From the NCBI RefSeq assembly GCF_003148465.1, contig NZ_QGGI01000015.1, positions 1 to 64,000 on the forward strand: 64,000 nucleotides of DNA, given 5' to 3'. The stretch is from Oceanotoga teriensis (lineage in GTDB: Bacteria > Thermotogota > Thermotogae > Petrotogales > Petrotogaceae). The stretch's first letter is position 1. The number at the start of each line of letters is the position of its first letter. Both the position numbers and the translations under genes were made by a program. The notes under the pieces were generated by a model that saw only the letters and a list, made by a program, of their open reading frames with translations, did no database searches and was not told where the DNA came from. Shown here piece by piece: positions 1,149-42,247 of the stretch.

Positions 1149-1984
1149 TAAATGGAAAAGAAAGAGTATGTGTTCAAGGAATAACGGGAAAATATGGACA
1201 ATTTCATACAAAAAAAATGAAAGAATATGGAACTAATATAGTATGTGGTGTTTCAAAAAATGATCTCATAGATGAAGTGTATGACATTCCTGTATTAAAA
1301 ACTATGAAAGAAGCTGTTGAAAAATATAATACTGATACATCAATAATTTTTATTCCAGCTAAAAATGTAAAATCAGCTGTTTTAGAAGCTATAGAAAGTG
1401 GTATAAAAAAGATAATAATAATAACTGAACATGTACCAGTTCATGATATGCTTATAATAAAATCTAAAGCAGATGAAAATAAAGTTTTAATAATAGGACC
1501 GAATTGTCCAGGTATAATACTTCCAGAAAGATCTAAAATAGGTATAATGCCAGAAAAAGCTTTTAAAAAGGGAGATATAGCTATAATATCAAAAAGTGGT
1601 ACTTTGATGTATGAAATTGCAGATTATCTTTCAAATAATTCAACAGGTATAAGCATAGGGATTGGATTAGGTGGAGATATGATAATAGGAACTGGATTAA
1701 AAGAAGCTTTTGATTATATAATAGAAAATAAAATAAAAAAGGTTATAATAATAGGTGAAGTTGGTGGTAGTGAAGAAATAAAAGGAATAAGATATGCTTT
1801 AGAAAATAATTATGATGGCAAAATAAAAGCGTTTTTTGCTGGTCGAACAGCACCGAAAGGAAAAACTATGGGACATGCTGGAGCTATAATTGAAGGATAT
1901 GAAGGAAGTATAGAATATAAAGAAAAAGTATTGAGTGATTTAAATATAAAGGTTTGCAAGAGTATCAAAGATTTAATATCGTAA
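1145..1984 (+). CDS. sucD: Succinate-CoA ligase alpha subunit-like
   Basis: This is the alpha subunit that carries the phosphohistidine intermediate. It has an N-terminal Rossmann CoA-binding domain (GITGKYGQFHTKKMKEYGT) and IGPNCPGII. Its C-terminal ligase domain has GRTAPKGKTMGHAGAI, with the catalytic His at about residue 244. The length of 279 residues is near the family norm of about 290. The start overlaps the sucC stop (ATGA), so the two are translationally coupled and form the two-subunit enzyme. With fermentative AdhE elsewhere in the window, it could serve substrate-level ATP formation; that role is inference. Transcription ends at the hairpin shared with the convergent MFS gene. 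Confidence 0.9.
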   Translation: MINGKERVCVQGITGKYGQFHTKKMKEYGTNIVCGVSKNDLIDEVYDIPVLKTMKEAVEKYNTDTSIIFIPAKNVKSAVLEAIESGIKKIIIITEHVPVHDMLIIKSKADENKVLIIGPNCPGIILPERSKIGIMPEKAFKKGDIAIISKSGTLMYEIADYLSNNSTGISIGIGLGGDMIIGTGLKEAFDYIIENKIKKVIIIGEVGGSEEIKGIRYALENNYDGKIKAFFAGRTAPKGKTMGHAGAIIEGYEGSIEYKEKVLSDLNIKVCKSIKDLIS

Positions 1985-1990
1985 AACATA

Positions 1991-2030
1991 ATCCTCAAGT
2001 AGATTTAATTAACTTTATCTACTTGAGGAT
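1991..2030. terminator. Bidirectional terminator between sucD and MFS gene
   Basis: A perfect 14-bp stem (1991-2004 with 2017-2030) has a 12-nt loop. T-rich flanks lie on the plus side, with A-rich sequence on the other side. The stop codon and last residues of the minus-strand MFS gene lie inside this hairpin. Confidence 0.85.
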
Positions 2031-3265
2031 ATTTTAAATCTGAATATATTACTTATTAAAATGGAAAAAATGGATAAAACTATTAATGAAATACCGACAT
2101 TTGAAATGTCTGCTATCAAACCCATGAAAAATATCATTATGGCTGTAAAAATTGTTTCAAATTGAGATTCTGTTGATAAACCAGTTGCCATAGATTTTAG
2201 GTCAATTTCTTGAGAAACTTTTGAAACTGCTATTGGTTTTCTCAAATTTTCTATTATATATATTAAAAAGAAAAATATTGTGGATAAATAATAAAGTTCA
2301 AATACAAAAAATATACCGCTCATCATACCCGATAAAAGACCAATAATCATAGTTAAATTTAAAGGTTTTTCAAGTGTTTTATATTTTTTTACTATTTTAG
2401 AAGAATTTTTTGAAGAAATTGCAGTTAAAATATAAAGTATAAAATATACAATTCCAACAAATATAGAAACTCTTTTTTGATCATTTAAAAATAAAAATAT
2501 AGGAATATTTAGAGCCAACATCTTAATTATGGGCTGTAAAAAATCTTTCATGCTTTTATAATAACCTGCATAAAAAGATGAATTTATTATAGCTTTTAAA
2601 AATTCTTTATTTTTAAAAGAGTTAAAAATTCCTTTAAAAACATTTTTAAAATGTAATTTTATATCTTTTAAATTTATTTTTTGAATATCTCCATCAAGTT
2701 CTTTGGGATATGTAGAAAGATTTATTAAATCTATAAAATAAGGTATTATAGAAGCTAAAAATATCATAGAATAATTGCCAGCATATAAAACTAAAATGGC
2801 AGCAATTATAGATGAAATAGCTGATCCTATTTGTGACCATGATCTCGTATTTCCATAATATTCAACCTTATAATCTTTCCAGTTTTTAAGACTTAAGTAT
2901 TCCATTATCATAGCCTTATGTGTACCAGAACGAAATGTTTCTCCAAAAGAATAGAAAATCATAGCAAAAATAAATATAAAAAAAGACTTTGATACATAAA
3001 ATATAAAAAAAGATACTATGTATGATAAAAAAGAAAATATCATAGATCTTCTTCGGCCTAATCCATCTGCAACTATACCTGTAGGTATTTCTAATAGATT
3101 TATCAAAATTTCTCTTATTGCATAAAGAGAACCTATTTCTGTGAAAGAAAGACCTTTTTCCTTTAAAAATAACATGAAAAAAGGTTCAAAAAATCTCAAA
3201 TTCTTAAAAAAACCATACATACAGAACTTATAATATTGTTTATCTTTTTCGAAATTATTTTTCAT
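2015..3265 (-). CDS. Major facilitator superfamily transporter
   Basis: This is an inner-membrane MFS permease of 416 residues and about 12 predicted membrane helices. MFS motif A is visible as GIVADGLGRRRS at residues 63-74, between helices 2 and 3. The substrate cannot be told from sequence. Some drug-efflux members have similar length, so export of a small molecule is a guess. The start ATG follows a GGGAGG site. The gene stands alone: its 3' end lies in the shared terminator and its 5' end lies in a perfect 201-bp tandem duplication. The first 47 codons therefore occur a second time upstream, as a dead fragment. Confidence 0.85.
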   Translation of the reverse strand: MKNNFEKDKQYYKFCMYGFFKNLRFFEPFFMLFLKEKGLSFTEIGSLYAIREILINLLEIPTGIVADGLGRRRSMIFSFLSYIVSFFIFYVSKSFFIFIFAMIFYSFGETFRSGTHKAMIMEYLSLKNWKDYKVEYYGNTRSWSQIGSAISSIIAAILVLYAGNYSMIFLASIIPYFIDLINLSTYPKELDGDIQKINLKDIKLHFKNVFKGIFNSFKNKEFLKAIINSSFYAGYYKSMKDFLQPIIKMLALNIPIFLFLNDQKRVSIFVGIVYFILYILTAISSKNSSKIVKKYKTLEKPLNLTMIIGLLSGMMSGIFFVFELYYLSTIFFFLIYIIENLRKPIAVSKVSQEIDLKSMATGLSTESQFETIFTAIMIFFMGLIADISNVGISLIVLSIFSILISNIFRFKISSSR

Positions 3266-31866: not shown

Positions 31867-31880
31867 TTTCATTATTGTTT
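31848..31880. terminator. Bidirectional terminator
   Basis: A 14-bp stem (31848-31861 with 31867-31880) has flanking A and T runs. It spans the stop codons of the convergent small DNA-binding gene and the GT2 gene. Confidence 0.88.
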
Positions 31881-34712
31881 TTTATCTTTATCTTCAAAAC
31901 CTATTCTTTCAAATTTTGACCAACCCATAGGTTTTTTTAGAGAATTATTAAAAGCATTTAATCTTACAAAACTCATGAACTGTCTTGGACCAAAATTTTC
32001 TAAAAATGAAAAAAGGATTAACAAAAAAGTTTCTTTTTTACTGAAATAATTAACTTCATCTTCGGCTATTATTAGAGAAGCTAAAGAAGTTGTTACACCT
32101 ATAAATATTGTTGTTAAAAACAATAAAAAACCCATTTTCAAACTTAAAATATTAAAAAATCCTGCTAATACTATCATAAGATATCCTTGTATTTCTATTA
32201 AAGGTCCTATTAATTCAAATATAAAAAAATAAGGAATAGATATGAATCCCATTTTTCCATATCGTGGATTAAACATTAGATTTCTATGAAAAATCAAAAT
32301 ATCTATAAGACCTCTATGCCATCTATCTCTTTGTTTATAAAGGTTTAAATAGCTTGGTGGTACTTCAGTCCAACAATTGGCATTGTATGAATAACCTATT
32401 TTATGTTTAATTTTTTTATCATACATATCTCTATTGATTCTTACTACAAGTTCCATATCTTCACCAACTGTATCTTTCTTGTACTTTCCTTGTTCAGATA
32501 AATATCCTCCAGCTTCTATAATTCTTTTACGATTAAAAAGACCAAAAGCTCCAGAAATTATCAACATTGAATTTATTCTTGCCCAGCCGAGCCTTCCTGC
32601 CATGAAAGATCTTATATATTCAACAGTTTGAAATCTTTCTATTGTTTTGAATGGTAGATTTATTTTTTCTATATATCCTTTACTAACTTTACAGCCATTC
32701 AAAGGTAAGATATTTCCACCAATTGCTATCATTTCATGATCTGTATCCATTTTTAAACTTGTTATTTTTAAAAGTGCATCAGATTCAAGTATAGAATCTG
32801 CATCTATTCCACAGAAGAATTCTTTTTTTGATATATTTAAACCAGTATTCAATGAATCAGCTTTTCCACCATTTTCTTTATCTACCACTATTAGTTTTGG
32901 AATAGATTTATTTATATATATACCTCTTATAGGTTTTGTATTCAAATTTTTATTTAATATATAATCTGTTTTTTCAAGATTAAAATAATCTATCAACTTT
33001 TCAAGAGTATCATCTGTTGAACCATCATTAACTACTATAACATCATAATCAGGATACTGTAAGTTTAAAAGTGCATTAGTACTTTCTATTATTATTTCTG
33101 TTTCATTATAAGCTGGAGCTATTATTGATATACCTGGAAGAATTTTAAAAGTATAAAGTAAACCTTTGAACTTTAAATTCCACATTTTTTCTTGATGAAG
33201 TTGTTCAAAGTATGAAATTATTACAAGAATTAAATAAATTGCATTTAATATTACGACATATATTATTAAATACCAATTGAAATCATATATATATAATTTT
33301 AAACCTTCAATAAAAGTTATATCTGGAATTATTTTTCCATGCCTTAAAACAAATAATAAAGGGAAAAATGTAAAAACACCTATTAAAATTTTAATTAAAT
33401 TTTCGATTTTATCTTTTTCTCTTTTAGTATCTTTTTTTGGAGGCTTTTGTATAATTCTTTTTAATGAAAGCTCATTTAAAATTCTTTTATTTATATATAA
33501 TTGAAACTCTTTTTTTATGTATTCATTTTTTTTAATTGCTTTTTTTAAATAAGGCAAAATAATTCTTTCAATTGGAATATTTTTATTTTTATTTAAAAAG
33601 TCTATTGTATCTCCTATTACATCACTCAATATTATGTTATATATTAAATTTGCATATTTATCTTTTTCATTCGTTAATAATTTAAAGAAAAAATATTCTA
33701 TCTTAATTGATATTACATTCGCTAAATTTTTTTTAATTTTATTGTTTTTTTCATTTTCAAATATATCTATTAAATACTCTAAAAATTTAGGGTTTTCTCT
33801 AAGAATATTAGAAAGAGAATATATGGCGTATTCATAAGTTTCATCATTTTCTAAAAATGGAATTAACTGATCTATATTTTCTTTTGTATTTATTTTAGAA
33901 AGTGTTTTTATTACAGTTTTTTGTATTTGCAAATCTTTATTGTATAAATAATATGCATCATTCAATATGTTAAAATAATTTTTTGAAAGACTTTGAACAG
34001 CTGCTCTTGATATTTCTATATTTTCGTCTCTTGATTTTGATATTAAATAACTTTTTAACTTTGTATCCATATAATGTGATGCAAAATATATTATCATCAT
34101 TTGTATTTCTATTTCTTTTCTGTCCAATATAGTTAGTATATAATCATGAAAATCATTTTCAAATTTTGACAACATTACTTGAATTTTTTCCTTGTAAGGT
34201 TTTGGAGAGTTTATAAGACTTTCAACTAAAATAGGTATAGAATTTTTATTATGTATTTTATATAAAGAGTAAGCTATATATAATTTTATTATATAATCAT
34301 TTTCATTTTCAAATTTTTCTTCTAAAACTAAGCGACATTCCTCAGTTCCTATTTCTCCGAGATAAACTATGGCTTGTATTAAATTACTTTTAATTTTTGA
34401 GTTTATTCTTTTTATATATTTTTTTTCTATATCATATTTTTTTATTAATTCCATGAATTCTTTTTTTGTTTTTTCATCGATCATTATAGATTGATTCATT
34501 TGTGCATATGCTTGCATAAAGTATTTAGGTTCTTCAATTTTAATTTCAAGGGGATTATTTATATTTTTTGATATTAAATTTTGCATATTATTTAATTTAA
34601 TTCTTTGATATTTTTTTAAATATTTTTCTAATATAATTCCTATTATCAAAAGTGTATCGATTATGGCAAAGAATATAAAAAGATTTATTATTATTTGTTT
34701 ATCTAAAATCAT
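31872..34712 (-). CDS. HEAT-repeat-fused processive family 2 glycosyltransferase
   Basis: This inner-membrane polysaccharide synthase has 946 residues. An N-terminal membrane helix (about 8-27) is followed by about 300 residues of HEAT-like helical repeats (about 100-410), then two helices (about 440-500). The GT2 catalytic domain has APAYNETE (about 533), VNDGSTDD (about 566), GIDADS (about 638), GED (751) and QRDRWHRG (QxxRW, about 796). More membrane helices close the protein. QxxRW marks processive enzymes such as PgaC, BcsA and HasA. The HEAT part is probably cytoplasmic and could dock a regulator. It starts 6 nt after the pseudoenzyme gene, with its AAGGAG site inside that gene's end. 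Confidence 0.85.
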   Translation of the reverse strand: MILDKQIIINLFIFFAIIDTLLIIGIILEKYLKKYQRIKLNNMQNLISKNINNPLEIKIEEPKYFMQAYAQMNQSIMIDEKTKKEFMELIKKYDIEKKYIKRINSKIKSNLIQAIVYLGEIGTEECRLVLEEKFENENDYIIKLYIAYSLYKIHNKNSIPILVESLINSPKPYKEKIQVMLSKFENDFHDYILTILDRKEIEIQMMIIYFASHYMDTKLKSYLISKSRDENIEISRAAVQSLSKNYFNILNDAYYLYNKDLQIQKTVIKTLSKINTKENIDQLIPFLENDETYEYAIYSLSNILRENPKFLEYLIDIFENEKNNKIKKNLANVISIKIEYFFFKLLTNEKDKYANLIYNIILSDVIGDTIDFLNKNKNIPIERIILPYLKKAIKKNEYIKKEFQLYINKRILNELSLKRIIQKPPKKDTKREKDKIENLIKILIGVFTFFPLLFVLRHGKIIPDITFIEGLKLYIYDFNWYLIIYVVILNAIYLILVIISYFEQLHQEKMWNLKFKGLLYTFKILPGISIIAPAYNETEIIIESTNALLNLQYPDYDVIVVNDGSTDDTLEKLIDYFNLEKTDYILNKNLNTKPIRGIYINKSIPKLIVVDKENGGKADSLNTGLNISKKEFFCGIDADSILESDALLKITSLKMDTDHEMIAIGGNILPLNGCKVSKGYIEKINLPFKTIERFQTVEYIRSFMAGRLGWARINSMLIISGAFGLFNRKRIIEAGGYLSEQGKYKKDTVGEDMELVVRINRDMYDKKIKHKIGYSYNANCWTEVPPSYLNLYKQRDRWHRGLIDILIFHRNLMFNPRYGKMGFISIPYFFIFELIGPLIEIQGYLMIVLAGFFNILSLKMGFLLFLTTIFIGVTTSLASLIIAEDEVNYFSKKETFLLILFSFLENFGPRQFMSFVRLNAFNNSLKKPMGWSKFERIGFEDKDKKQ

Positions 34713-34718
34713 AAAAAT

Positions 34719-36671
34719 TCAACTCCTTATTTTATTTTTTATTATTTCAAGGAGTTCACCAGTTGAATAAGGTTTTTTAAAAAAATAACTTATATCTAAA
34801 GCATAGGCTCTTTTGACATTTTCATAACTTTTTTCATAATCTATTATTATATACATTATTTCTTTTAAAGAAGAGTATTTTATCATCTCTTCTCTTACAC
34901 GAAAACCATCTATTTTTGGAAGCATTATAGATGTTATTACAAGATCTGGAAAGTTTTCTTTTATTAATTTTAAAGAGGTTTCTCCATCTGAACAAGTAAA
35001 AACGAGATAACCAAGATTTTCAAGTAATTCTTTAAGAGTTTTTTTATGCATTTCATCCGTGTCTACTATTAAAATCTTTCCTTTAGTATCTACAAATTTT
35101 TTGAGCATGGCATCTGAATAAACCATATTCATTCCTGTATTTTTAGCTATTTTAAGCCTTATCATTGCAAGATTATATATTTCATCTACCATTTCATCAG
35201 ATATTAATCTATTATCTTTTATTTCATCGGTTTCAACTACTGCAACAGATACAGTTATATGTTCTATAAACCTTTCAGATAAAGATATTGTATTTCTTAT
35301 TTCATCTGCAATTTCATAAGCCTTTTCTTTGGATATTTCTTGATCTGATATATAATAGGCAAATAAAGCCCCTTTTAATTTAAAAATATGATCTTGTGGC
35401 CTTTTTAAATCTCTTAAAATATAAGAAATTATTTTTAAGGTTTCATCACCAGCATCATTACCATAATCAAAATTTATTTTTGATAAATTATCTGTATCTA
35501 TGAATATAATATATCCTTTTTCATTATTTTTTTCCATTTTTGCTATTTCTGTATTTAAATAATTGAGAAAATATTTACCATTGTATAATTTTGTAAGAGG
35601 ATTGATTAAAGATCTTTTATGGATTTTATTTAATTCATCTTCAAGTTTTCTTTTTTCTTCTTTTAAATCTTCGATTTCTTTTTCATTTTTATATATGTAT
35701 GAATTAAATATTTCTGGAATTTCCATTTCAACAAGTCTCTCTTTTACTATGTCTTCAGCTATTATTAAATGTCTTACACCATAATTATGATAAATTATTT
35801 CTAAAAATAAATTTAATAATTTTTTTGAACTTGTTTTAGTTTTGATTATTTTATTATCTTTTATTTTTATTTCTGTGGATTTAAAAATATTTAAAAAACT
35901 CAATCCATAAGATTTTATATATAATTCTATTATTTCATTTATAGTGTTTAAAAATATATCATTTTTATTGTCTATATTCTTATGAAAATTTAATTTTCCA
36001 CATTTAAGATCTTTTAAAATTTCTAAATATAGATTTATATTTTCTTTTATAATTCCTCCATATGTCGGTAAAATCATTTGGATTTGCAAGTCTTTTAGTT
36101 TAAAATAAATATTTTCAAGTAAATCTTCTGAAGATATAAAATACTCGAGATATGATTTTATATATTTAATAGAATTTTTATTTGAATAAATTGAGAATTC
36201 TTTATTAAAACAAGAAAAAATATTTCCACTGAAAAGGAAATCATTATAAACACATATAAAATTTTCTGGATGAGGTGTATAAGGTATGGGCAAAAATTTC
36301 AATTGTTCTCCATTTTTCAAATTTAAATTATTTTTATTTTGATTTATAAAATAAAATTCGGATTTTAAATTGAATAATTTTATTGATTCACCAGTACGCC
36401 AATGTGTTATTATTTTACCTTTAAAACCATTATCTTCAAATTTGTTAATTGCAGAACAATTTGAAGTATCTCTCAATACTATATAATCTAAATCTTTGAT
36501 TTCAGATATTTCTGAGATTGATTTTTTTATAGAATCAAATTCTTTAATAGATCCACAACCAAAAAGTATTTTTTCTTCATCAAAATTTAGAAGATAAATA
36601 TTGTTTTGAAGATGATTTATTAATTTATCATTTCCAATTCTAAATATATGATCATTTATTTTATATATCAT
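34719..36671 (-). CDS. Pseudoenzyme: metallo-beta-lactamase (ODP)-like + GGDEF + receiver, all catalytic sites lost; probable c-di-GMP receptor
   Basis: This cytoplasmic protein has 650 residues. Residues 1-220 resemble the ODP/flavodiiron beta-lactamase fold (PHPENF at 133-138, FLFSGNIF, LPTYGG), but the HxExDH site reads RDTSNC (67-72), the bridging Asp is Asn150 and the last His is Tyr. A coiled linker leads to a GGDEF domain (about 355-520) whose active site is KGALF (433-437). The inhibitory-site motif RPQD (424-427) is kept at the exact five-residue distance. The receiver (about 528-650) has Ser581 in place of the phosphorylated Asp. It therefore probably binds c-di-GMP without making it and controls the co-transcribed glycosyltransferase, as PelD does for Pel. 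The c-di-GMP role is inference. Confidence 0.75.
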   Translation of the reverse strand: MIYKINDHIFRIGNDKLINHLQNNIYLLNFDEEKILFGCGSIKEFDSIKKSISEISEIKDLDYIVLRDTSNCSAINKFEDNGFKGKIITHWRTGESIKLFNLKSEFYFINQNKNNLNLKNGEQLKFLPIPYTPHPENFICVYNDFLFSGNIFSCFNKEFSIYSNKNSIKYIKSYLEYFISSEDLLENIYFKLKDLQIQMILPTYGGIIKENINLYLEILKDLKCGKLNFHKNIDNKNDIFLNTINEIIELYIKSYGLSFLNIFKSTEIKIKDNKIIKTKTSSKKLLNLFLEIIYHNYGVRHLIIAEDIVKERLVEMEIPEIFNSYIYKNEKEIEDLKEEKRKLEDELNKIHKRSLINPLTKLYNGKYFLNYLNTEIAKMEKNNEKGYIIFIDTDNLSKINFDYGNDAGDETLKIISYILRDLKRPQDHIFKLKGALFAYYISDQEISKEKAYEIADEIRNTISLSERFIEHITVSVAVVETDEIKDNRLISDEMVDEIYNLAMIRLKIAKNTGMNMVYSDAMLKKFVDTKGKILIVDTDEMHKKTLKELLENLGYLVFTCSDGETSLKLIKENFPDLVITSIMLPKIDGFRVREEMIKYSSLKEIMYIIIDYEKSYENVKRAYALDISYFFKKPYSTGELLEIIKNKIRS

Positions 36672-36746: not shown

Positions 36747-38137
36747 TTATTTCAACATTAATGTATAATATAATATTCCGGAATTTCCTGCCGCTAAGAG
36801 CATTAAAATTTTATTTTTATTATTTTGAAATGATTTAGTTTCTATGAAATTAGGAGATGCATCATATAGATTTTCTACATCTTTATAAACAGGATCTTCT
36901 TCATTCAATATTTCTGTTCCAATTAAATTTAGACTATTATTATCTAAAATTATTTCATGAATACTAAAGCCGGAAGATATTTTTTTATCTATATCTTCAT
37001 AAAAGAATGTATTAAAAGCAATTTTTTTATCATTAATTAATGAATATGAAACGCCATTAGAAGTTATTTTATTTCCATTCAATTCATCAAAAGTCATTTT
37101 TTTATTGCTCATATAGGAATAGTATCCAAACCCATTTTCTGACATTGAATATAAGAAATTAAAATTATCTGGCCAATAATTGCCAAAGAATTGTACAGTT
37201 GCTTTAGCTTCTGTATAGTTACCATTTTTATTTCCAAATCTTCCTATATCTTGAATTTTTTCTATTCTTGTTTCTCCATTGTTTAATCTAAATAATGTTC
37301 CATTGTCTCCAGATATTCCATAAATATAATTATCATATTTTGCAAGGTCTTTTATATCATCATATGAAATTATATAATTTACTTTGTTTAGCTGATTGTT
37401 ATATGCTGCTAAACCACCATATCTTGCAAGGGTGACATAATAAAATTGTTCATAAGATATACCTGTTACTGTATTAGGTGCAAGCAATAAATCATCCGCA
37501 TCTTTCATATTCCATGAGCCCGAATTTATATCTTTTGCATCTGATATATCATTTTTTACAAGTCTTAAATTATTTTCTATTTGATTTTTTATAGTAGTTT
37601 TATTCAAGCTAGTTTTATTAAAATAATCAAATTTACTTATAAAAGGTACTGAAACATTATCATCATTTAAAATATTTCCACCAAATACAATTTCATTTAA
37701 TTTTTTATTATAATAAAGTGTATTTATATCAGCATTATTAAATTTTATTTCTGTAAATATTTTTGGATTATTATCATTTGAAAAATCTATTATTTGAATG
37801 GCACCTTTTGCATCTTCTCCAGCAAGATTATAAGCTATAAACACTATATCATATCATTTTTGTTCATAATTATATCATTTGCTTGTACATTTACACCATC
37901 AATTTCAACAGGTTTTATATTTCCTCTATAATTAAGATTTATACCTGCATGAGTATTACTTTTTGTTGTTTGTAGGGTTATCGTAGAATCTTGCGTTTCA
38001 ATTTCTTGTTCTTCTAAGTTTATATCGATTTTATCAAATTTTGCATCATATCTTTTATAGTCTTGTTTTTTTGGTACACAAGATACAAATAATATGGATA
38101 TTATTGTGAGCATCGATATCAATAATATTTTTTTCAT
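36747..38137 (-). pseudogene. LVIVD/propeller-like lipoprotein, frameshifted by a 5-bp duplication
   Basis: The first frame (from an ATG at 38137) encodes a lipoprotein signal ending LFVSC. It runs to GVNVQANDIIMNKND and stops at once. The second frame continues as VFIAYNLAGEDAKGAIQIIDFS to the end at 36747. The intact upstream paralogue reads straight through the same place (VQANDITSYDNYSVIAYNTAGDDVKG). The break is a tandem pentamer, ATATC ATATC on the plus strand at 37846-37855; removing one copy restores a 460-residue-class protein. It may be a recent pseudogene, a phase-variable gene or a sequencing error. Unlike the paralogue, it lacks the last roughly 185 residues. Confidence 0.8.
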
Positions 38138-38161
38138 TTTTTTCACCAACCAATTTAAAAA

Positions 38162-40000
38162 TTAATTTTTATAAATATTTATTATTTCATCTAAAGGTTT
38201 TTCTTGATAATCGAATCTTAAAATGAAACTAACATTTTTATTTAAAATATTTTTGTATTTTAGATGAAATATTAATTGACCTTTTCCATCATTACCATCT
38301 TTATCATAATAAATGTCAAAATTATCAGAGTTTAAACCACTTACAGATGTATATGTCATATTGTTTTTAGAAATAAAACCATCTTCGATTATATATATTC
38401 CAAGATATTTATTCTCGCCATTAAAAGATTTTGAAAATGTTGATCCCATTTTTAAATGAATTCCTTTTTCGTTTCTTGAAATATTAGGTGATACTATTGA
38501 TTTTTCGTATTCTTTAGTATCTATTTCTTCTATTTTAGTAGGAGTATTTTCAAAATGTTTGAAAATTCCAAGCTCACTTGAAAAAAGACTATTTTCTTCT
38601 AAATATATAAAATTTAGTCCAACATTGCTTATATTTTCTTTGAATTCAATTTTTTTTGAAATTTTTTCAAAGTTATTGAAATTTGTATAATAATCTTTTG
38701 ATTTTTCTAAGTTTGTGTATGTAACTTCATAATTATATTTTATGGAATAAAAAAGTACTCCAGCATTTCCAGCAGCTGCAAAAGCATATTTATCAGTGTA
38801 TTCTAAAAGTCCATCTTTTTTATTATAATTTCTAACATATACAAAATTAGGTGATGCATTTTTTATTTCAGAACCATATTTATCAGAAGTAAAAATTTCA
38901 GATCCTACATTTTCAACTTTAAATTTTATTTCGCCATTTTCAACTATTAATTTAGGATAATAAATTTTAAATCCTGATTCTGTACCATTTGTATAAGATG
39001 CTAATATCAATCCTGGATCATAAGAAATGCTATTTACAGTATAATTATTTTCTTCAAATTTTGAATTTGTTTCATCAATTGGATTTAAAGTTTGAACTTC
39101 AAATCCATTATTTCCAAGTGAATAGGCAAAAGTTCCATTTTCTATTATTTCTAGAGTTGCTTTTCCATCTGTATCAAAAACTTTTGAATTTATTTCAGAT
39201 GATGAACTTAAATCTGAATTTATTTGATATATAACTCCTTTTTCACCTGATAATGCGTATATTTTTTGGTTTGAGATTTTCATATCTTTTATATCTTGAA
39301 AATCTTTGCTGTCTTTTAAATAATTTAAATTTGAGTCTAATTTTATTAAACCACCTTTTTTAGCTATAGACACAAAAATATTGGAATTTAATTCTACAAT
39401 AGAAGTTACAACATTATATTCATCGAATATTATTTCAGATTCAATATTATTTATATGATTTACATATCTTATACTATTTACTATATTTTCAGCATTTATA
39501 TCACTTAAATCAATTTTACCAACTATTGGTTCAGTATTTCCATTTTGCATTTTTGTTATCCCACCGAATATTATTTCATCAGTATTTTTATTATATTCAA
39601 TTGCATTGATTTCATGAGATGAGAAAGTAATTCTGTAATCAACAACAGGTTTGTTTGGGTTTGATACATCTATTATTTGAATAGCTCCTTTTACATCATC
39701 TCCGGCAGTATTATAAGCTATTACTGAATAGTTATCATAAGATGTTATATCATTTGCCTGTACTTTTACATCTTCTACCATCATTGAATTTATTTTTGCT
39801 TTATAATATATTTGATAATTGTCATCATTATCTCTTGATTTCGATTCTTCAATATAAGTTACAGCATTTTTTGGATTTTTTATTATATTTATACTATCAT
39901 ATTGTGTTATATCTTCATTAAATTCTTTTTTCTGTGGAAGACATGATACTAAAAGAATAGATGTTATCAAAATAGTCATTATTAAATAAATTTTTTTCAT
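38162..40000 (-). CDS. LVIVD/beta-propeller-like lipoprotein of the polysaccharide locus
   Basis: This exported lipoprotein has 612 residues, with signal MKKIYLIMTILITSILLVSC (Cys20). Residues about 80-420 form repeats with the pattern GAIQIIDVSNPNKPVV, close to the LVIVD repeat, and end YAFAAAGNAGVLFYS, so a beta-propeller is likely. A further region of about 185 residues (about 425-612) is unique to this copy. The tandem downstream gene is a shorter paralogue. The pair lies between the glycosyltransferase unit and the TPR-barrel gene. A surface or periplasmic role in polysaccharide retention or export is inferred from place only. Confidence 0.65.
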   Translation of the reverse strand: MKKIYLIMTILITSILLVSCLPQKKEFNEDITQYDSINIIKNPKNAVTYIEESKSRDNDDNYQIYYKAKINSMMVEDVKVQANDITSYDNYSVIAYNTAGDDVKGAIQIIDVSNPNKPVVDYRITFSSHEINAIEYNKNTDEIIFGGITKMQNGNTEPIVGKIDLSDINAENIVNSIRYVNHINNIESEIIFDEYNVVTSIVELNSNIFVSIAKKGGLIKLDSNLNYLKDSKDFQDIKDMKISNQKIYALSGEKGVIYQINSDLSSSSEINSKVFDTDGKATLEIIENGTFAYSLGNNGFEVQTLNPIDETNSKFEENNYTVNSISYDPGLILASYTNGTESGFKIYYPKLIVENGEIKFKVENVGSEIFTSDKYGSEIKNASPNFVYVRNYNKKDGLLEYTDKYAFAAAGNAGVLFYSIKYNYEVTYTNLEKSKDYYTNFNNFEKISKKIEFKENISNVGLNFIYLEENSLFSSELGIFKHFENTPTKIEEIDTKEYEKSIVSPNISRNEKGIHLKMGSTFSKSFNGENKYLGIYIIEDGFISKNNMTYTSVSGLNSDNFDIYYDKDGNDGKGQLIFHLKYKNILNKNVSFILRFDYQEKPLDEIINIYKN

Positions 40001-40217: not shown

Positions 40218-41243
40218 ATGAAAAAAAATTTTTTGATTTTATTAATTTTTATTTTTAGTTTTATAAATGTTTTTTCTATAAATTATGATGAATTGACTCA
40301 AGAAGCAAGAGCTTTAGCTTGGAGTGGAGAATATAAAAAAGCTATAAATATATATGAGAATTTAATAAGAGAATATCAAAATAAAGAAGTTTATCTTGAT
40401 TATTCAAATGCACTTGCTTGGAGTGGAGATATAAAAAAAGCTATAAATCTTTTAAACTCTTTTGAGGGTGAAGATTCTGATATTGAAATGAGAAAAGCAA
40501 GATTTTTTTATTGGAATTTAAATTTTTCTGAAGCTTATAATATATTTTCAAAATATAAAAAAGATGAACTTGAAGAAAGTGATTTAGCTTTCATTAATTG
40601 GTATGAAGAATATAAACATTTTTTTATAAAAACTTCATATATCACTGATTTTTTGAAAGAGAATAGGGAGAATCAGTTTAATATATATATGGCTTATAAT
40701 TATTATGATGTTTTTTCTGTAGCATTAAAATTTGATAATTTCTTTTTTGATGATGAATACAGAGTTGGGAAATCTTTAATAGAATTTTATTATGATGATT
40801 TTTTTTCTTTATTGGGTATAAGTCATAATCAATATTATATAGCTGAATTTGGTTATGTTTTTAAACCATTTACTCTAGGGTTTAAATCTACAAAATACCT
40901 TGAGAATTATGATGAATTTATAAAAAGTACTTCTGTTAATGGAGGGTATTTTGTTTTTAATTTTGTGTTGGAAAATATAGAGTTTTTACTAAGAGCTAAT
41001 TTAGATTTTATTTATAAGGATTATTTTTATAAGGATCCTGAAAATGATTTAGTTTTTTCTTATTTGATTGGTAGTACTTATAAAAACTTTGGATTTAAAC
41101 ATTATTTTGATTTAAAAGAGTTGAATAAAAGTTTTATAGAATACAAGGATAATATTTGTGATTTTAATTATTCAATTAGTTTTTATTATGATTTTTTTAA
41201 GAAAAATTTTGGAGCGGGTATTTCTTTAGGATACTCTTTTTAA
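40218..41243 (+). CDS. TPR plus outer-membrane beta-barrel protein (PgaA/YaiO type)
   Basis: This protein has 341 residues. A signal peptide (MKKNFLILLIFIFSFINVFS) is followed by TPR-like repeats (about 25-130), in which LAWSGEYKKAINIYENLI and LAWSGDIKKAINLL are successive units. A beta-barrel part of roughly 200 residues ends GISLGYSF with a C-terminal Phe. This is a compact version of PgaA/YaiO-type proteins, in which periplasmic TPRs lead an exopolysaccharide to an outer-membrane pore. It is divergent from the lipoproteins and shares a TTAA stop overlap with the convergent glycosidase-like gene. Confidence 0.7.
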   Translation: MKKNFLILLIFIFSFINVFSINYDELTQEARALAWSGEYKKAINIYENLIREYQNKEVYLDYSNALAWSGDIKKAINLLNSFEGEDSDIEMRKARFFYWNLNFSEAYNIFSKYKKDELEESDLAFINWYEEYKHFFIKTSYITDFLKENRENQFNIYMAYNYYDVFSVALKFDNFFFDDEYRVGKSLIEFYYDDFFSLLGISHNQYYIAEFGYVFKPFTLGFKSTKYLENYDEFIKSTSVNGGYFVFNFVLENIEFLLRANLDFIYKDYFYKDPENDLVFSYLIGSTYKNFGFKHYFDLKELNKSFIEYKDNICDFNYSISFYYDFFKKNFGAGISLGYSF

Positions 41244-42247
41244 TCATAGTATATAAAATACTCCCAAATCCAGAAGCTATTTTCTACAGCTTCTGGATTT
41301 ATTTTTAAAAAATAAATTTCTTCATTTTGAAGTATTTTTTCATATAATGAATCATTTCTTTGTATATAAAAATCTTCTATTACAATCAATTTTTCAATCT
41401 TATAATGTTTTTGTTCATCAATATATATTTGTTTTGTTTTTGAATATAATGAATCTATGTTATTTATAGTTTTTATAAAATATAAATTTTGATTTCTATG
41501 TAATATTATTCCACTTTCAAGTGAATAAGAAATTTTATAATTTTTTGAATTAAAGTATTTTAAAAGGTTTTCAAGTCTATTTTCATTAAAATTCAATTTT
41601 AATTTATTCTCATGTAAATAATATCCAAAATCTTTTATATAAATCATAGGAACTAAAGTAGCATATTTCGATAATTCAGATTCGTCATAACCTCTGAGTG
41701 AATTTTCTTTTTCGTCCTCTATTATTGATGAGAAGAGAAAAAGTTTTTTTTCGCCTACGATTTTTTTTAGATTTTTTACGATTTCAATCATTTTTTTATT
41801 ATTTTGAAAATTTGAATTTAGATTTATCCATTCAAGATCTATTGCAATTCCATCATATTCTATGTTTGAATTTTCTAAAAATTTTAAGTTTTCTTTTGCG
41901 ATTGTCTCATAATTTTGATATATATATTCAAATTCTTCAGAACCATAACTATCTAAAAACCAAATATATTTTTTTGTTTTTAAATTGTCTAAAAGTGTTT
42001 TTAAATTTTCTTTTGAGGTTTTATAAAAGAATAAACTTCCTTTTTTATAAGCGGTTTCTTTTCCTAGGTGTATTATAGTTTCATCATAATTTTTGTTTAT
42101 ATGTTCTGCCATGTTTTTAAAGTATTGTGTATTTTCATCACGAAAAGTTTTTAGCATTATTGAATCATTTGCTATTATAATCCCTTTTGAGTATATTATT
42201 GTTTGTATTAATGATAAAAGTATTATTAAATATATACTTTTTTTCAT
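41240..42247 (-). CDS. Secreted TIM-barrel glycoside hydrolase-like protein
   Basis: This exported protein has 335 residues, with signal peptide MKKSIYLIILLSLIQTIIYS. The central segment IEYDGIAIDLEWI (Asp132, Asp137, Glu139) has the DxxxxDxE arrangement seen at the end of strand 4 in GH18-like and related (beta/alpha)8 hydrolases. LVPMIYIKDFG and a late barrel strand follow. A PgaB- or PslG-like role of trimming the polymer in the periplasm is inferred from context. Its start overlaps the aldehyde dehydrogenase stop (ATGA) and has only a weak RBS, so it is translated by coupling. Confidence 0.6.
   Translation of the reverse strand: MKKSIYLIILLSLIQTIIYSKGIIIANDSIMLKTFRDENTQYFKNMAEHINKNYDETIIHLGKETAYKKGSLFFYKTSKENLKTLLDNLKTKKYIWFLDSYGSEEFEYIYQNYETIAKENLKFLENSNIEYDGIAIDLEWINLNSNFQNNKKMIEIVKNLKKIVGEKKLFLFSSIIEDEKENSLRGYDESELSKYATLVPMIYIKDFGYYLHENKLKLNFNENRLENLLKYFNSKNYKISYSLESGIILHRNQNLYFIKTINNIDSLYSKTKQIYIDEQKHYKIEKLIVIEDFYIQRNDSLYEKILQNEEIYFLKINPEAVENSFWIWEYFIYYD
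41266..41300 (+). terminator. Terminator embedded in a convergent coding sequence
   Basis: A perfect 13-bp stem (41266-41278 with 41288-41300) has a 9-nt loop and is followed on the plus strand by ATTTTT. It lies 23 nt after the TPR-barrel stop codon but entirely inside the last 20 codons of the convergent glycosidase-like gene. Confidence 0.75.

Follow-up and report, generated by a model that had tools for sequence, protein, structure and literature searches.

The gene at 34719-36671 in a 64,000-nucleotide stretch of Oceanotoga teriensis (contig NZ_QGGI01000015.1, positions 1 to 64,000; hereafter the window) encodes a protein of 650 amino acids in which ODP, GGDEF and receiver domains follow one another and no catalytic residues are found in any of them. 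We consider that this protein probably acts as a non-enzymatic, phosphorylation-independent regulator of the product of the next gene, a putative exopolysaccharide synthase with a HEAT-repeat arm. An original prediction had described it as a triple pseudoenzyme with an intact allosteric site for cyclic di-GMP (c-di-GMP), maintained by selection as a signalling scaffold. Comparison with relatives indicates that the pseudoenzyme status of the GGDEF and receiver domains is conserved and kept by selection.

Degenerate GGDEF and receiver domains

The coding strand is the minus strand, read from 36671 down to 34719 as an open frame of 650 codons, and the plus strand of the same interval contains 55 stops; the coordinates given by the original prediction were correct, the strand not being stated there. 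Pfam profiles detect, all well over the cut-off and in this order, an ODP (beta-lactamase-fold diiron) domain at residues 21-205 (36057-36611, minus; PF19583, 3.4e-24, profile positions 1-194 of 194), a GGDEF domain at residues 357-515 (35127-35603, minus; PF00990, 4.2e-18) and a receiver domain at residues 533-644 (34740-35075, minus; Response_reg, 8.7e-17), matches that are far beyond chance. The diagnostic residues listed previously, namely RDTSNC at 67-72, Asn150, RPQD at 424-427, KGALF at 433-437 and Ser581, all lie at the positions reported, and the tyrosine said to replace the final histidine is Tyr204. The protein contains no hydrophobic transmembrane (TM) segment, and no GAF domain was found by Pfam.

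At the GGDEF position the protein reads KGALF (35361-35375, minus), which departs from the GG[D/E]EF motif of diguanylate cyclases. A search of 103 genomes of the phylum recovered two further full-length relatives, G016 and G004, both with about 35% identity to the window protein, where this position reads QGASF and KGSLF. The replacement is itself conserved, as seen from KLKGALFAYY in the window and RLQGASFACY and KLKGSLFAYY in the relatives. Likewise, the phospho-acceptor position is occupied by Ser581 in the window protein (34929-34931, minus), by Glu in G016 and by Ser in G004, and none of them has the aspartate of a phosphorylatable receiver. The loss in the window receiver is wider than previously listed, since Thr538 stands in for the second acidic residue and Asp611 (34839-34841, minus) occupies the Thr/Ser switch position, Lys633 being kept. 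The window protein and G004 have Ser in place of the phospho-Asp and Asp in place of the switch Thr, as if a negative charge had crossed the pocket; in G016 the two positions are Glu and Ser.

Both the GGDEF motif and the phospho-Asp are lost in all three members, all of which have open frames. Orthologues with an intact GGDEF motif or receiver Asp would have marked the window copy as simply decaying, and neither relative has either. Because the same losses recur in proteins about 35% identical, with open frames, simple decay of one copy is rejected. Identity between the relatives reaches 39-46% in the receiver, compared with 27-40% in the GGDEF domain and 29-33% in the ODP domain. Hence the receiver is the best conserved domain although it is not phosphorylatable, which counts in favour of a retained non-enzymatic regulator. 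A direct scan of genome contigs with the regulator protein gave one receiver-only match, viral contigs gave no match, and plasmids had no place covering 80% of the query, yielding Fusobacteria ODP and split GGDEF fragments and a Paenibacillus HEAT/GT2 cluster.

The putative HEAT-GT2 synthase and its wider module

The partner gene (31872-34712, minus) starts 6 bases past the stop of the regulator and encodes 946 amino acids comprising an N-terminal TM segment, HEAT repeats, more TM segments and a PgaC/IcaA-like GT2 domain, from which we infer a polysaccharide synthase. The HEAT region, at about residues 95-425 (33438-34430, minus), is recognized by Pfam HEAT_2. It is also matched by a profile made from the stand-alone HEAT proteins that 12 other genomes encode, and this profile picks out the HEAT portion in each of the three fused synthases (E values of 1e-12 to 1e-20). 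Neither a PgaD nor an MshEN domain was found in the synthase by Pfam. The HEAT-GT2 protein occurs in exactly the same three of the 103 genomes as the regulator (chance of the same three, about 6e-6), and in all three the regulator gene lies directly upstream, with a gap of 6 bases in the window and overlaps of 4 and 17 bases in G016 and G004. The link to the GT2 gene, previously drawn from short spacing, is thus real and stronger than had been claimed.

Because of this adjacency, the co-occurrence and the domain order, we propose that the receiver and GGDEF domains would serve as binding modules, most likely docking on the HEAT arm, and that this contact would set the activity of the synthase without phosphorylation and without the production of c-di-GMP. 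In G016, an ODP domain with its diiron site probably feeds in oxygen or redox state, while in the window protein and G004 this input would have been lost, the domain being structural or binding something else.

Related gene sets appear elsewhere. A search with an alignment of the synthases over 390 genomes, mostly outside the phylum, returned 15 further strong GT2 matches, one per genome and in different families, with a HEAT gene directly upstream in 14. A receiver-domain gene stands next to the HEAT-GT2 pair in 11 of the 15, ten of them upstream of HEAT (one with a TPR gene between) and one divergent, downstream of GT2; a Paenibacillus plasmid carries HEAT followed by GT2 without a receiver. 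The window locus has the same order of adjacent receiver gene, HEAT and GT2, and, given the recurrence of these genes together with the HEAT profile match, it represents a receiver-HEAT-GT2 module that has undergone fusion and rearrangement. In two other lineages, the regulators beside HEAT with a central GGDEF domain have lost the motif in seven cases of seven (NGEDL, GWEGF, GGAQF, GEQEF twice, GNDDF and GEKEL), and a further regulator beside HEAT, L099, reads EPVMF with RPTD. Cyclase activity has therefore been lost repeatedly beside the HEAT synthase. A paralogue in G252 that is located away from HEAT keeps GGEEF (two genomes of that phylum were searchable), and the regulator L092 carries GGDDF, a sequence that could belong to an active or an inactive domain.

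Several observations weigh against the proposed regulation. The exact ODP-GGDEF-receiver architecture is represented by three members only, a small sample. Most receivers nearest HEAT in other lineages keep the phospho-Asp, which makes the dead receiver exceptional, with a role that may differ; phosphorylation would probably be the usual input, dropped in the window lineage. The GT2 domain scores 115 bits against NCBIfam TIGR03937 (PgaC/IcaA poly-N-acetylglucosamine synthase), for which the cut-off is 422, and single-sequence AlphaFold of the window protein gave a predicted local distance difference test score (pLDDT) of 35 and no usable model. More broadly, we give about an even chance to the existence, across many lineages, of a class of exopolysaccharide synthases in which receivers, often with a dead GGDEF domain, would gate the GT2 enzyme directly through a HEAT adaptor, with phosphorylation in most lineages and without it here. 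Nothing relevant to a HEAT-GT2-receiver system was found in the open-access literature, which is no proof of novelty. EmbRS of Rubrivivax was considered as a precedent and rejected, since its receiver sits on a LuxR-type DNA-binding regulator.

Candidate signals and the fate of the ODP domain

The strongest competing explanation is a PelD-like c-di-GMP receptor in which binding at an RxxD I-site switches the GT2 enzyme on, a tentative possibility that would be compatible with the non-enzymatic regulator proposed here as its input signal. RPQD (35391-35402, minus) lies in the window protein five residues before the GGDEF position, at the exact I-site spacing; the host genome has 17 GGDEF matches, some with an intact motif, and both PelD and BcsE offer precedent. 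Furthermore, RxxD is kept in six of the seven dead-GGDEF regulators beside HEAT in the two other lineages, or in seven of eight with L099. However, the positions of RPQD read EENT and EEKH in the two relatives. The I-site consists of R359, D362 and R390 plus R313 of the neighbour, as reviewed (PMC7288161), and R402 is absolutely required in PelD (review, PMC8461298). In an alignment with PleD the place of Arg390 is taken by Glu457 in the window protein (35301-35303, minus) and by Arg in both relatives; this third position was placed by alignment to PleD and not to PelD, and some intact cyclases also vary there. A complete I-site is consequently found in none of the three: the window protein has RxxD but lacks the third basic residue, and in the relatives the reverse holds. 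Such incompleteness counts against c-di-GMP binding, though it is not proof of its absence. The earlier view of an intact I-site was right about the spacing and too strong about the site, and the alignment of orthologues that it called for supports the KGALF-type and receiver Asp losses as common features but not the conservation of RPQD. With RxxD kept in those other regulators, c-di-GMP may play a role in the wider module.

Sensing of GTP or of some other nucleotide by the GGDEF domain, for which the degenerate, nucleotide-binding GGDEF sensor of C. crescentus CC3396 is a reported precedent (PMC7288161), seems improbable. In the window domain, the substrate pocket still has its DxD and GD residues (IDTDNLSKIN and AGDETL), but the relatives alter the same residues (NVNNLSEIN; VNEIL and KIR), and the pocket is not conserved.

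A third explanation, in which the ODP domain would still let the window protein sense oxygen or redox state, appears still more doubtful. The profile recognizes the ODP fold over its whole length, whereas alignment of the window sequence to 17 intact ODP proteins shows a substitution at each metal-ligand position. The intact consensus HHQDP[DN]...PYxH...SxD...PQHG has RDTSNC, PYTP, GNIF and PTYG as window counterparts, with RDTSNC (36456-36473, minus) in the place of HHQDPD, Asn150 (36222-36224, minus) in that of the bridging Asp and Tyr204 (36060-36062, minus) in that of the last metal His. The ligand loss had been judged before against HxExDH, the motif standard of flavodiiron proteins; the loss itself stands, but intact members here read HxDP[DN]x, the last His of that standard being normally absent. 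All ODP ligands are likewise lost in G004, whereas the metal set of G016 is complete (HHQDPD, PYLH, SSD and PQH), so that the claim of uniform loss in three domains holds for GGDEF and receiver but not for ODP. The G016 gene adjoins genes whose sequences read as rubrerythrin-like and desulfoferrodoxin-like, a setting consistent with an oxygen input that still works in G016, and in other lineages ODP occurs in fusions with intact GGDEF or with domains resembling class III cyclases. In a tree of 20 ODP proteins the window protein, G016 and G004 group together (support 98/95), with branch lengths of 3.6 for the window, 4.2 for G004 and about 0 for G016; the finer branching order is unsure owing to the long branches, and these very long branches further argue against a surviving sensor in the window. 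A reasonable history would start from an ODP-GGDEF sensor cyclase which lost GGDEF activity, gained a receiver and became associated with the synthase, the ODP site being lost later in two lineages.

Least probable is that we are looking at a decaying former ODP-diguanylate cyclase without a present role: the window protein and G004 do have a rapidly evolving ODP domain, but the frame of 650 codons is open, two relatives share the losses and the replacement motif, the receiver is well conserved and the pairing with the synthase is strict.

ODP fusions were also encountered apart from this locus. At loci L060, L061 and L062 (about 1465-3123), ODP domains whose metal motifs are intact are joined to domains that, by eye, resemble class III nucleotide cyclases (VMFINIRGFTEWS), which suggests that oxygen controls cyclic nucleotide synthesis there. 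An ODP relative is present on three plasmids of Fusobacteria bacterium ZRK30, and on one plasmid locus of this organism (L049, 2968-4487) after the ODP gene comes a GGEEF cyclase domain whose annotation is divided between two more short genes.

Known analogues and neighbouring genes

The window protein finds its nearest known analogues in PelD and BcsE but belongs to neither. BcsE, the regulator of cellulose secretion in E. coli (PMC7439463), resembles it in having a degenerate receiver-GGDEF tandem with an N-terminal domain and in serving a GT2-type synthase non-enzymatically, and binds partner proteins through its dead GGDEF domain (PMC7439463). It differs in its order (N-terminal domain-receiver-GGDEF instead of ODP-GGDEF-receiver), in its working RxxD site (RTGD) and in acting via BcsQ/R/F and BcsA, while the partner in the window is a HEAT-GT2 fusion. 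PelD of P. aeruginosa (PMC8461298) shares a degenerate GGDEF domain beside a polysaccharide polymerization complex, and RxxD with the window copy, but it is membrane-bound, contains a GAF domain and needs R402 besides RxxD, unlike the window protein with neither TM segment nor GAF and with Glu at the third position. ODP oxygen sensors and ODP-GGDEF cyclases share the N-terminal ODP domain and, in intact proteins of other lineages, the ODP-GGDEF order, whereas the window protein lost the metal ligands and GGDEF residues and added a C-terminal receiver. PleD-type receiver-GGDEF response regulators belong to the same receiver and GGDEF families but with the reverse domain order, and the window protein lacks their catalytic and phospho-acceptor residues. 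As to the partner, the c-di-GMP-controlled GT2 synthases PgaCD and NfrB are similar in the PgaC/IcaA-like GT2 domain and the nearby TPR outer-membrane protein, the HEAT arm standing in the place of PgaD.

Degenerate GGDEF regulators of polysaccharide synthases are so far known from a few systems, such as PelD and BcsE. The locus studied here points to a kind of synthase that seems not to have been described and that combines a HEAT arm with input from a receiver, in many unrelated bacteria. The intact ODP-GGEEF oxygen-sensing cyclase, G016 with a living ODP domain and a dead GGDEF domain plus receiver, and the fully dead window and G004 proteins would form a natural series, allowing tests of the change from enzyme to scaffold and of two-component signals that directly reach a polymerase.

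Among the neighbouring genes, the TPR protein at 40218-41243 (plus) is a probable outer-membrane exporter whose homologue flanks the G004 locus, and the secreted protein of 335 amino acids at 41240-42247 (minus), without a Pfam family, has a homologue (37%) whose gene lies immediately upstream of the G004 regulator. No pel-like neighbours were present in the annotated stretch. In G016 the HEAT-GT2 gene beside the intact-ODP regulator (L047, 3038-6064) contains a cysteine-rich insert within its HEAT region (SCSNCMYATPGESEDIRTCPYYGTVKPDYYCGKYK), possibly a metal site. Finally, the interval 36747-38149 (minus) holds a second, diverged copy of the 612-amino-acid lipoprotein encoded at 38162-40000, split by a frameshift into frames of 101 and 365 amino acids, a split that looks the same here whether the gene was truly inactivated, is subject to phase variation or contains a sequencing error.
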